Below, piece by piece: positions 479 to 62,230 of a stretch of 64,000 nt of DNA (within the stretch, counting starts at the first letter, position 1; every line of letters starts with the position of its first letter). The notes beneath the pieces are model-generated. The model was not told the origin of the DNA, did no database searches, and saw nothing but the letters and a program-made list of their open reading frames with translations. The DNA is from a virus: positions 1 through 64,000 of the IMG/VR virus record IMGVR_UViG_3300023174_000155; one strand, 5' to 3'. Both the position numbers and the translations under genes were made by a program.

Positions 479-492
479 AGTTACCTTTCTTG

Positions 493-566
493 TACACCAG
501 GTAGGACTTGAACCTACGATAGCCGAATTATGAGTTCGGGGCCTTAACCAACTTGGCTACTGGTGC
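493..566 (-). tRNA. tRNA with CAT anticodon (Met, or Ile2)
   Basis: The reverse complement folds into a complete 74-nt cloverleaf. It has acceptor GCACCAG/CTGGTGT, D stem GCC/GGC, anticodon stem CCGAA/TTCGG with loop CTCATAA, T stem GTAGG/CCTAC with loop TTCAAGT, and discriminator A. No CCA is encoded. The CAT anticodon reads AUG, or AUA if the C is lysidylated as in tRNA-Ile2, and sequence alone does not decide which. It sits between two protein genes of the terminase transcript. Confidence 0.93.
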
Positions 567-54935: not shown

Positions 54936-55690
54936 ATACCAATTTCCTTGCGTTTTTGCGTGGCAGAAATAGCATGAATGTCTGCCCCCAAATCTACTTG
55001 TTCAATCTTATATCCTACGTCTCTTCCATATACAATATTTGTAATATTAGGCAGTCTTAGTACTAATGCACCATCCATAAAGTCATCCTTAGCAATATAC
55101 TCTTTTACCTGATCAAATGTTAACGGGTCTTTAGGACTTGTGTTATATGTATTACGTACTCCAAGAAGAACTTGTTCTGTTCTGTTTCCCGCCTCTTTAT
55201 ATAATGCGTGATGGCCTTCATGCCATGGCTGATATCTTCCAAGCATTAGTGTTGTTGGAGCGGACCAATCATGAAGATTAAACTTTTTAATTATATATGA
55301 AGCTTTACCTTCGGCATCTAAGTTATGACTAATAAAAGATGCATCAAATTCTGTAGGACGCTCAAACATTTTATTTGTATCTTCAAAGCGTCCCTCTGCT
55401 AATGTATCCATAAATATCAAAATGTTTGGTTTGCCAAATGCTGCACGAGTTAGGCTTGTTGGGCAAATAAAATCTACAATTACTGTATGCCCTTGCCCAT
55501 CTAGCATACGTGCAATTTCACCCAATCTACGTGCATGCTCAATTCTATCTTCAATTGTAAATCCAAGATCTGAATTAATTGTTGAACGAACATAGTCTGC
55601 ATTTAAATGAATAGCATTAATACGTTCTTTAAGGGCGGTAGCAAGGGTCGTCTTACCACTTCCTGGAAGTCCCATAATCTGTATAATCAT
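54932..55690 (-). CDS. APS kinase-like / nucleotidyltransferase fusion
   Basis: 252 residues in two domains. Residues 1-135 follow adenylylsulfate kinase (CysC): P-loop GLPGSGKT (7-14), then NADYVRSTINSDLGFTIEDR and RRLGEIARMLDGQGHTV and DFICP, each aligning with DGDNVR...DLGFS..DR, RR.GEVAKL, FISP. Residues 145-252 are a nucleotidyltransferase of the HxGH type: LGRYQPWHEGHHAL (H157, H160) and ISATQKRKE (241-249), closest to the NadM/cytidylyltransferase pattern. Makes PAPS if the APS-kinase call holds; the second activity is uncertain. Confidence 0.8.
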   Translation of the reverse strand: MIIQIMGLPGSGKTTLATALKERINAIHLNADYVRSTINSDLGFTIEDRIEHARRLGEIARMLDGQGHTVIVDFICPTSLTRAAFGKPNILIFMDTLAEGRFEDTNKMFERPTEFDASFISHNLDAEGKASYIIKKFNLHDWSAPTTLMLGRYQPWHEGHHALYKEAGNRTEQVLLGVRNTYNTSPKDPLTFDQVKEYIAKDDFMDGALVLRLPNITNIVYGRDVGYKIEQVDLGADIHAISATQKRKEIGI

Positions 55691-56412
55691 TAACGATATT
55701 CCTTTGTCTGTCTATATTGGGTCTTATATGAGTCAAAGAAGCGTGTTCTAAGCTTTGTTGTGACCTTATTTGATTCCGCCACATCTTCATTTTTGCCAAT
55801 AGACATCTGCCAGTCTTCTCTTTGAAAAGGAATAACCTGAGCTACAGCTGTTCCTGCTGGAATTATGCCCTCAAAATTAACATCATTTAAAACAAAAGGA
55901 AAATTAACGGGAGCAGAATAGGTATCTGTATCTACGACACCTGGCAAAATAGTAAAATCTGAAGGTCTATGAAATGGCTGTACAAATAAAACTGAGTATC
56001 CTGGTGGTGTTTTAATTGCCCATGGATTAATCCATTTAGGATATGACTCTTGATGACCATTTCTATTTGGATGATTTGGTGCTTGATCTACTGGATGAAA
56101 GGCAATCAATCCAAAATTTGCCCACTCATACCATGGTCTCTTACCCATCGAATCACCATTGTCGTCAAATGTTTCTCTTTGTGATATAAATACATCTGCT
56201 GGAGTTTTAATGATATATCCTGCATTCATTACATCAAATACTGGCATACAACGTTTAATTGTTCCTGTTGTGTTTCCATCTCCAGATGGCTTCTTTTCGC
56301 CGCCAATATACGACTCTAAATCTTTATACCAATCTGGTATGTTTTTAAAAGCTGGCTCTGGAGGAAATATTTCTTCAATCCCCATCATATTTGTAAAAAT
56401 TATATCTGCCAT
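55690..56412 (-). CDS. conserved phage protein, paralogue of 59684-60385
   Basis: 240 residues. MADIIFTNMMGIEEIFPPEP, IPDWYKDLESYIGGEKK, CMPVFDVMNAGYIIKTPADV, PWAIKTPPGYSVLFVQPFHR, and GTAVAQVIPFQREDWQMSIG. A family I have met in marine and freshwater phages and associate with DUF6065; not sure of the name. Beta-rich, no catalytic motif assigned. A promoter lies upstream and the gene overlaps the kinase fusion by one base. Confidence 0.7.
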   Translation of the reverse strand: MADIIFTNMMGIEEIFPPEPAFKNIPDWYKDLESYIGGEKKPSGDGNTTGTIKRCMPVFDVMNAGYIIKTPADVFISQRETFDDNGDSMGKRPWYEWANFGLIAFHPVDQAPNHPNRNGHQESYPKWINPWAIKTPPGYSVLFVQPFHRPSDFTILPGVVDTDTYSAPVNFPFVLNDVNFEGIIPAGTAVAQVIPFQREDWQMSIGKNEDVAESNKVTTKLRTRFFDSYKTQYRQTKEYR

Positions 56413-59523: not shown

Positions 59524-59546
59524 TCAAAATATACTATATAATGCTA

Positions 59547-59675
59547 TTATTCAGTTATTTCTGTATATTCTGTTCCACATATATCACAATTTGTAAACCA
59601 TTGTGGGTCAGTGGCTGTGCGGTATTCAGAATACTGTTTACCACACTGGTTACAATTATATTTATATTCTGCCAT
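59547..59675 (-). CDS. 42-residue zinc-ribbon protein
   Basis: ATG 59675, TAA 59549-59547, preceded by GATAGGAATAAAA. MAEYKYNCNQCGKQYSEYRT, then FTNCDICGTEYTE: two CxxC pairs, 20 residues apart, a rubredoxin-like zinc ribbon. Short genes with this pattern accompany phage fibre genes. Function unknown. Confidence 0.8.
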   Translation of the reverse strand: MAEYKYNCNQCGKQYSEYRTATDPQWFTNCDICGTEYTEITE

Positions 59676-59683
59676 TTTTATTC

Positions 59684-60385
59684 CTATCTATACGTTTTTT
59701 TGGTCCAAGACATTTTTTTGTATCTATCAAAAAATCTTGTAGTAAATTTGCGAGCATATACTAGCATATCTTGTTTATCTTTTTCTGTTCCTAGTTCTGA
59801 CTTCCAGTCTTGTCTTTTGAATGGAATGATCTGTACTAAAGGGGTTCCTGCTTCTATTACTCCCTCAAAATTTGGGTCTCTTAATTTTAAGAATAAATTA
59901 AACGGTAATGGATATTTATCAGTATCTACAATACCACTAGAACAAATAATTGGTCCAGGCTCATGGTGCTGGGGCTCCATAACCATAATTGACCAGCCTT
60001 TTGGAGTTTTAATGCTCCATGGATGAAGAATTCTTACTGCATAGTTTATATCTCTAAAATATGGATGATTTTGAGTTTGCTCCATTGACTGAAAAGCTAT
60101 GGCTTCCATTGATCCCCATCTAAAATATGGTCCTGTTGGGGTTTGAGTTACATAAATATCATATGGAGTTTCCATAATATATCCCGCAGTCATCATATCA
60201 AATACTGGTAGACATTTTTTTACTGATGTATTTGGAAGACCATTATCGTTTAGTTTTTGTTTACCGCTAGGATTAAGATATGCTTGTGCATCTTTATACC
60301 ACTTTGGAATAAAGTTTGATGCTGGACTAGGCTTATTTAGCACACCTTCTGGATTATCAATATCTGTAAATTTAATAATTGCGAT
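59684..60385 (-). CDS. conserved phage protein with an ATC start, paralogue of 55690-56412
   Basis: 233 residues if started at the ATC at 60385 (read as M-AIIKFTDIDNPEGVLN), or 219 from the GTG at 60343. The ATC start is favoured because AAGGGG lies 8 nt upstream, an in-frame stop lies a few codons before it, and the residues between ATC and GTG align with the first residues of the paralogue (MADIIFTNMMGIEEI). KCLPVFDMMTAGYIMETPYD and PWSIKTPKGWSIMVMEPQHH match the paralogue. Function unknown. Confidence 0.72.
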   Translation of the reverse strand: MAIIKFTDIDNPEGVLNKPSPASNFIPKWYKDAQAYLNPSGKQKLNDNGLPNTSVKKCLPVFDMMTAGYIMETPYDIYVTQTPTGPYFRWGSMEAIAFQSMEQTQNHPYFRDINYAVRILHPWSIKTPKGWSIMVMEPQHHEPGPIICSSGIVDTDKYPLPFNLFLKLRDPNFEGVIEAGTPLVQIIPFKRQDWKSELGTEKDKQDMLVYARKFTTRFFDRYKKMSWTKKTYR

Positions 60386-60417
60386 TTTTAATACCCCTTA
60401 AATTGTATTTTCTTTAT

Positions 60418-60723
60418 TTAAATTTCTAACCAGATTTGTGTTTCTTCTTGCCACTCATAATTTTTGCCATCTTGTGGTTTGCGTTTTCCAACAGGTGCAC
60501 GCCACAATTCTACTTCTTCATCCCATACCCAAGACTTATAAGGTTTTTCAGGGCGTGCAGATTTTGCAGTCTGTGTTTCTGCATTCCAAATTTGACCAGG
60601 TGAAACCGCTACATCAGATGATATTGGATTACCACCTAGAAATGATTGAGCAGTTTCAAAATCATCTGCAATAATTACATTACCAATAACTGATTCATCA
60701 TTAATCGTAAACCAATTAGCCAT
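60418..60723 (-). CDS. small fibre-associated protein
   Basis: 101 residues: MANWFTINDESVIGNVIIAD, FLGGNPISSDVAVSPGQIWN, SWVWDEEVELWRAP and YEWQEETQIWLEI. The aromatic W-x-W repeats place it with the proteins at 59170-59496 and 57013-57378. AAAAGGAGA site. Confidence 0.75.
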   Translation of the reverse strand: MANWFTINDESVIGNVIIADDFETAQSFLGGNPISSDVAVSPGQIWNAETQTAKSARPEKPYKSWVWDEEVELWRAPVGKRKPQDGKNYEWQEETQIWLEI

Positions 60724-60892
60724 TTGTATCTCCTTTTATAAATTGTTTTCCGTTCCATTTATCGCCAACTGTAATAATTCCAATTTCTTTTGTCATTGGA
60801 ATAAACTCACAATCAGGATATTCTTTTTTAGCATCTTCTAGTGTACCTACAAAATACCAAACAACAATTGAATTTTTAATAACAGCATACAT
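60716..60892 (-). CDS. 58-residue hypothetical protein
   Basis: ATG 60892, TAA 60718-60716, overlapping the next gene's ATG. MYAVIKNSIVVWYFVGTLED, then KKEYPDCEFIPMTKEIGIIT and KWNGKQFIKG. No ribosome site; TATATT six nt before the ATG suggests a leaderless start. Resembles small fibre accessory proteins. Below the usual length cutoff. Confidence 0.75.
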   Translation of the reverse strand: MYAVIKNSIVVWYFVGTLEDAKKEYPDCEFIPMTKEIGIITVGDKWNGKQFIKGDTNG

Positions 60893-60893
60893 T

Positions 60894-61637
60894 TTAGTAA
60901 TATACTAAAACGCAACCAGCACCACCTGCACCTGTTACGCCAAAAGCAGATCCGCAACCATTATTATTGGAACCGCCTGCACCACCGCCACCACCACCTG
61001 CACCACCTGCACCACCTGTTGCTGTGCCAGGGTTATTTTGATTTCCTGGTCCACCATTGCCGCCATTGCCTAACATACCAGCACCGCCACCACGGCCGCC
61101 AGAGGCTCCTGAGGCATTGTTTCCTGCTGAACCTCCATTAAAACCATATACAGAGTTTCCAGGAGCGCCATTTCCTTGCCCACCGCCAGCCGCTATACCA
61201 CTTTGGGCGGGATTATTGCCATCTGAACTCTTTGAAAAATTACCTGCTGTAGGCTGAAAAGTATTACCTGTATTACTAGTTATTGAGTTTCCTTGTCCAA
61301 AAACACCACCACCTGATTGAATATTTCCAAAAATACTAGGGGTAGCAGAACCGCCAATTTGAACAACAGCCCTTACAGGAGTCATACCAAACTGAACAAG
61401 TCCGCTAGTGCCAGCCAAACCATTAGAGTTGCTACTACCACCGCCGCCACCCATAACAACAGCATAAACAAATACTTGACCAGCATTAGTTGCAAAGTTG
61501 TTAGTTGATGAAGTAATTGTATGTCGAAGAGTATAAGAAGGTGTTATTGCTGCAATTCCTGCTGCAGTTGGTGCTGCTACCGCTGCTGCAATTGTTGCAG
61601 CTGAAGGTGGTTGAAAACTTGATAAATTAATTGGCAT
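60894..61637 (-). CDS. glycine-rich adhesin
   Basis: 247 residues from the ATG at 61637 ([20 protein letters not shown]), overlapping the previous stop as TAATG with GGAG upstream. A beta-rich start (LRHTITSSTNNFATNAGQVF) then about 150 residues of glycine-rich sequence (GGGAGMLGNGGNGGPG) ending GAGCVLVYY. Resembles the polyglycine tips of fibres, here as a free-standing protein. Confidence 0.8.
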   Translation of the reverse strand: MPINLSSFQPPSAATIAAAVAAPTAAGIAAITPSYTLRHTITSSTNNFATNAGQVFVYAVVMGGGGGSSNSNGLAGTSGLVQFGMTPVRAVVQIGGSATPSIFGNIQSGGGVFGQGNSITSNTGNTFQPTAGNFSKSSDGNNPAQSGIAAGGGQGNGAPGNSVYGFNGGSAGNNASGASGGRGGGAGMLGNGGNGGPGNQNNPGTATGGAGGAGGGGGGAGGSNNNGCGSAFGVTGAGGAGCVLVYY

Positions 61638-62230
61638 TAAAACATTCTCCATCCATATGTTGAACCTGTATATACAAAATAAACTACTCCGCCATTAACA
61701 TCTATTATAGCATTATCTGCTATTCCATTAATTAAATTTGCATTTCTTAAAATTGTAATATTATTTGTTGCCGCCGTATTTTTTGCATCAAATATTTGAA
61801 TTTCTGCTCCATCTGCAGGTGAAGCAGGTAGAGTTAATGATCTTGCTGCTGTTGTATCTACTAAATATCTTGTTCCAGAAACTAATGTAATATTTGAATT
61901 AATTGAAGAATTTGTAATAGCTTCTGGGCCTGTGGCACCAGTTGTACCTTGTGCGCCAGTTGTTCCTTGTGCGCCAGTTGTGCCTTGAGTGCCAGTTGCG
62001 CCTTGTGTACCAGTTGTTCCAGTTGTACCTTGTGCGCCAGTTGTGCCTTGAGTGCCAGTAGTTCCTTGTGCACCAGTTGTTCCTTGGGCCCCTGTGGTCC
62101 CCTGTGGGCCCGTAGAGCCTTGTGTACCAGTTGCCCCTTGAGTTCCAGTGGTTCCTTGTGCGCCAACAGTTGAGGCGGTGCCAACAGTCTGCCAAGCATT
62201 TCCATCCCATACTTTAATTAATTTAGCCAT
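61637..62230 (-). CDS. collagen-like fibre protein, short
   Basis: 197 residues: [20 protein letters not shown], then about 25 G-X-Y triplets (GTQ, GTT, GAQ types), then a beta-rich tip ([26 protein letters not shown]). Similar triplet choice to the longer collagen-like gene at 48585-49862. SD GAGGAGA. Confidence 0.85.

Follow-up and report, generated by a model that had tools for sequence, protein, structure and literature searches.

A candidate ATC start codon in an accessory phrog_7084 gene of an uncultured tailed phage

Background

How is translation initiated at a phage gene that has a strong Shine-Dalgarno (SD) sequence and a conserved N-terminus, and that carries ATC at the place where a start codon is expected? 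This question is raised by the gene at 59684-60385 on the minus strand of an uncultured virus record of 70,153 bases, of which bases 1-64000 were analyzed and are referred to here as the window. The source of the window is a tailed phage that encodes tape-measure, portal and major-head proteins, and almost all coding sequences are located on the minus strand. The gene belongs to the phrog_7084 family, comprises 233 codons if translation starts at the ATC and ends with a stop codon at 59684-59686. It represents a second copy of this family in the window, the other one being the paralogue MADIIFTNMMGIEEIF... at 55690-56412 (minus strand) that starts with ATG and is 40% identical to the ATC gene. 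The two paralogues are separated by about 3.3 kb with tail-type genes in between.

Sequence of the start region

On the minus strand, the upstream end of the reading frame consists of TAA (60400-60398) GGG GTA TTA AAA ATC (60385-60383), and the frame continues with GCA ATT ATT AAA TTT ACA GAT ATT GAT AAT CCA GAA GGT to the GTG at 60343-60341, which is the first standard start codon in the frame. The initial annotation of this locus had described an AAGGGG motif 8 nt before the ATC and an in-frame TAA just upstream that leaves no standard start before the GTG. Both observations were confirmed: the motif is located at 60399-60394 with a spacing of 8 nt between its end and the ATC, the stop codon is the TAA at 60400-60398, and neither an ATG in any of the frames nor another standard in-frame start is present between this TAA and the GTG. 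The stop codon also provides the UAA with which the SD sequence UAAGGGG (60394-60400) begins, and the pairing of this leader with the anti-SD sequence, calculated at -8.4 kcal/mol, outranks that of 56 of the 75 gene starts of the window. The GTG at 60343, on the other hand, is not preceded by an SD sequence (+0.2 kcal/mol anti-SD pairing). An out-of-frame TTG between the TAA and the GTG was also considered as a start and rejected, as its frame soon runs into a stop codon. The upstream phrog_7759 gene (60418-60723, minus strand) ends 32 nt before the ATC and is not fused in frame with the gene under study.

Among 78 ORFs that were chosen mechanically from the window, the ATC gene was the sole one found to combine a good SD sequence with homology beginning at a non-standard codon; a plausibly positioned ATG, GTG or TTG was present in all others. 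An opening of the type (A/T)TG-GCN occurs in 18 of 75 genes of the window, and the ATC gene would match it with a G in place of the C. A special initiator tRNA encoded by the phage was rejected as an explanation, since the sole tRNA has the anticodon CAU and a CCGAA/UUCGG stem without the three G:C pairs of the initiator, and no further tRNA was found in the remaining 6 kb of the record. The corresponding tRNA gene at 492-566 (minus strand, anticodon CAT) could specify an elongator methionine tRNA or a lysidine-containing isoleucine tRNA for AUA.

Comparative analysis of the start position

A set of 80 related loci was retrieved, including 33 close and distinct homologues with a complete 5' end. 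The initial annotation had left room for homologues that start at the GTG; all 33 start 13, 14 or 15 codons before the equivalent codon, that is, at the position of the ATC codon or within one codon of it, and the ATC register holds. The start codon is ATG in 32 of these genes and TTG in one, the latter being the closest relative (L053, 81%). The codon equivalent to the GTG is GTA in 22, GTT in 7, GTG in 2, GTC in 1 and GCA in 1 of the homologues, with the lone GCA resulting from a match in L046 that is shifted by one codon. A comparison of the nine codons preceding the GTG with 29 distinct homologues revealed 35, 10 and 131 differences at codon positions 1, 2 and 3, respectively, and this preponderance of third-position differences argues that the stretch evolves like a coding sequence.

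The 14 codons from the ATC to the GTG (60344-60385) specify the conserved N-terminus (I)AIIKFTDIDNPEG. The earlier claim that these residues align with the N-terminus of a paralogue was borne out by the copy at 55690-56412, which opens with TTTAAGGATATAAA-ATGGCAGATATAATTTTT, compared with TTTAAGGGGTATTAAAA-ATCGCAATTATTAAATTT in the ATC gene. In the related locus L004, the adjacent paralogue opens with ATG-ACAATTATTAAATTTACAGAT and the window gene with ATC-GCAATTATTAAATTTACAGAT, the amino acid sequence ATGACAATTATTAAATTTACAGAT matching ATCGCAATTATTAAATTTACAGAT at the N-terminus. At the nucleotide level, this second copy of L004, which is located directly behind the first one, reads ATGACAATTATTAAATTTACAGATACA versus ATCGCAATTATTAAATTTACAGATATT in the window, with 23 of 27 bases being identical and in register. 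The N-terminal residues of the ATC gene thus align with those of the homologues in exact register, which is more than expected by chance. The starts of the homologues, the internal valine and the coding-like evolution of the preceding stretch together argue against the GTG as the ancestral start and place the ATC on the start codon. The assignment of the ATC (60385-60383) to the start-codon position defined by homology, and hence its register, is well supported by these comparisons.

A start at ATC, ATT or ATA was detected neither in the 33 close homologues nor in 63 distinct paralogues, amounting to about 96 family members. The 63 paralogues start with ATG, GTG or TTG, roughly a fifth of them with GTG or TTG. 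One locus (L211) initially stood out because no standard start was present within 8 codons; an ATG was found 9 codons upstream. Judged from these genes, near-cognate ATH starts are no habit of the phage or of the family, whereas the weak starts GTG and TTG are common in the family. No second assembly of the virus was recovered from IMG/VR with an exact DNA pattern across the ATC or with a relaxed pattern of the N-terminus, searches that may not cover records very close to that of the window. Among GenBank phages, DNA comparison gave no match, and protein comparison yielded distant haloviruses and cyanophages only; none of 10 pattern matches in GTDB genome contigs was a relative. The ATC is accordingly carried by a single assembled sequence and absent from every relative found.

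Protein family and predicted fold of the gene product

Even without the part between the ATC and the GTG, the deduced protein matched the phrog_7084 profile with an E-value of 3.6e-46 at positions 19-239 of 240. The match to DUF6065 (PF19541) is borderline, the score being 26.7 bits when the N-terminus is omitted and 26.4 bits when it is included, at a curated cut-off of 26.6 bits, and 16 of 19 family members match DUF6065 at an E-value of up to 1. The phrog_7084/DUF6065 proteins constitute an unannotated family that is present in tailed phages and haloviruses. An AlphaFold2 model derived from 19 sequences was of moderate confidence (mean pLDDT 68, pTM 0.65). When this model was compared with the PDB, dUTPases ranked first in Foldseek (best E-value 1.2e-4) and made up all 50 listed matches in VIA-align (Z up to 9.9), and the alignment with 2py4, which started at model residue 1, covered 115 residues with an rmsd of 2.9 A. 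The model thus predicts a dUTPase-like fold for the phrog_7084/DUF6065 protein. By sequence, no PF00692 (dUTPase) match was found in the whole record, hhalign against five dUTPases returned a probability of 0.6%, and Pfam yielded DUF6065 only. Since the sequence profiles provide no link to dUTPases, the relationship is one of fold resemblance and not of family membership. A PDB sequence search with the family returned a weak p53-like match (E-value 0.13) that was dismissed as irrelevant. The invariant residues G151-x-x-D154-x-D156 resemble motif 3 of dUTPases (GLIDSDY) by eye. The first strand of the model, formed by residues 5-8, is located before the GTG, which is one more reason against the GTG as start; the invariant Phe6 is likewise specified by the 14 codons between the ATC and the GTG. 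The predicted resemblance of this unannotated phage family to dUTPases may prove more useful than the ATC start itself.

Selection and accessory status of the ATC gene

The frame of the ATC gene is intact, without a stop codon or frameshift. Pairwise dN/dS values of 0.17 and 0.16 were obtained for the window gene versus L004 and L053, respectively, compared with 0.19 between L004 and L053, and the unique replacements on the window branch are about as many as those of L004, without a clear excess. These substitution ratios show the gene to have been under purifying selection up to recent times.

The paralogue at 55690-56412 is 91-94% identical in the related phages G001, G002 and G003 and 84% in G004/G005, and it is the only copy present in these records; a match to the ATC gene was found in none of the records G001, G002, G003 and G005. 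By this distribution, the ATC gene constitutes a second, accessory copy located in a variable region, so that its loss or down-tuning would be tolerable. The DNA similarity to G002 stops abruptly at position 59526 of the window, just short of the ATC gene, and the region from about 59530 to 61650, including the ATC gene, is without a match in G002.

Interpretation of the ATC start

Near-cognate starts are known from several bacterial genes. The infC gene of E. coli starts with AUU and limits its own expression, as it encodes IF3. The initial annotation had compared the ATC gene to infC in this respect, a parallel that is without support: although a rare AUH initiation codon is common to infC, pcnB and the window gene, infC autoregulates via IF3, whereas the window product is a phage protein unrelated to IF3, and a self-limiting loop is therefore not expected. 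The AUU start of E. coli pcnB is given in the references of PMC13009471. AUC itself ranks among the top seven codons for initiation strength in E. coli (PMC12350097), and in Listeria monocytogenes a confirmed ATC start of rnhC and an ATT start of infC have been described (PMC13068326). As in the window gene, these codons stand at the start position of intact genes; the Listeria starts, however, are invariant in some 60,000 genomes and have been confirmed by experiment, whereas the window ATC is known from one metagenomic consensus. In S. aureus, AUU and AUA starts with an extended SD sequence provide about 10% of the AUG output (PMC13009471). The respective genes cvfC1 (AUU) and ccpN/citZ (AUA) likewise combine a near-cognate start with a strong SD sequence, for which an output reduced to about 10% of AUG is to be expected, but were studied by reporter assay and ribosome profiling in a bacterium (PMC13009471), whereas the window ATC is known from sequence and conserved in no relative found. 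AUC initiation being already known from Listeria rnhC, the ATC start would, if real, constitute a further case of near-cognate initiation.

The explanation that we favour, and to which we attach about even confidence, is that the ATC is real and still initiates translation. A single-base change would have converted an ordinary start codon, either ATG or, perhaps by another route, TTG as in L053, into ATC. The gene hit by this change was intact and had until then been under constraint (dN/dS about 0.17). The strong SD sequence UAAGGGG with its 8-nt spacer would set the ribosome on the ATC, with which the fMet-tRNA can pair at two of three positions, most likely initiating at a low rate. The product would be the full-length protein fMet-AIIKFTD... 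at a reduced level. Both the authenticity of the C at 60383 and a useful level of initiation there are inferred. The tolerance of the family for weak starts, as evident from the TTG in L053 and the GTG and TTG starts of paralogues, was counted in favour of weak initiation at the ATC. Counted against it was the finding that, in vitro, codons pairing weakly with the anticodon at the third position yielded no more than 0.05 uM product (PMC10158994); together with the published cases of near-cognate initiation, this weak pairing leads us to expect a low level of the full-length protein. That selection favoured a genuine AUC start in the accessory dUTPase-fold gene as a brake on its dosage, with the partner copy keeping its AUG, is improbable.

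The initial annotation had named a natural AUC start, a recent loss of ATG and an assembly error as alternatives. These are the right ones, except that the lost codon need not be ATG, since the closest relative L053 starts with TTG. A weak start of a known though rare type, a recent start mutation and a one-base assembly error are inseparable from sequence alone. An assembly or sequencing artefact, with the virus having ATG at 60385-60383 and the consensus C being wrong or a minor variant chosen by the assembler, is possible but somewhat unlikely: the base is known from one metagenomic consensus, every homologue has a standard start and the gene otherwise looks fully constrained, but substitution errors are rare in assembled consensus sequences, and the compact ORF layout of the window, without obvious broken genes, bounds the error rate weakly in the same direction. 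We consider it unlikely that the start has truly been lost and that the accessory copy is effectively silent or starting to decay while the ATG-started gene at 55690-56412 carries the function. The gene looks dispensable in the lineage, since the other copy is the only one in G001, G002, G003 and G005, and an alternative start preceded by an SD sequence does not exist; the SD sequence is intact, however, and the uninterrupted frame, the dN/dS value of 0.17 and the lack of a clear acceleration on the window branch imply that any loss of the start would be very recent. Translation from the GTG at 60343, yielding a protein shorter by 14 residues and making the ATC irrelevant, is very improbable: no standard start precedes this codon in the frame, but it has no SD sequence (+0.2 kcal/mol), corresponds to an internal valine codon, mostly GTA or GTT, in the homologues, follows a stretch evolving as coding sequence, and would deprive the predicted fold of its first strand together with the invariant Phe6.

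If initiation at the ATC is real, the few genes known to be initiated at AUC would be joined by a phage example, and it would demonstrate that gene callers misplace such starts: a caller limited to ATG, GTG and TTG would truncate this protein by 14 conserved residues, among them those of the first strand. If the base is an assembly error, the locus is a reminder to compare homologues before a start is trusted.

Arrangement of paralogues in related loci

In the related loci L004 (1956-3409) and L053 (1956-3364), the two paralogues are adjacent, and the stop codon of the first gene overlaps the ATG of the second. In five further loci (L197, L233, L234, L240 and L244, at about position 295), the GTG start of the second paralogue and the 3' end of the frame before it overlap (AAGTGA...), an arrangement that suggests translational coupling.
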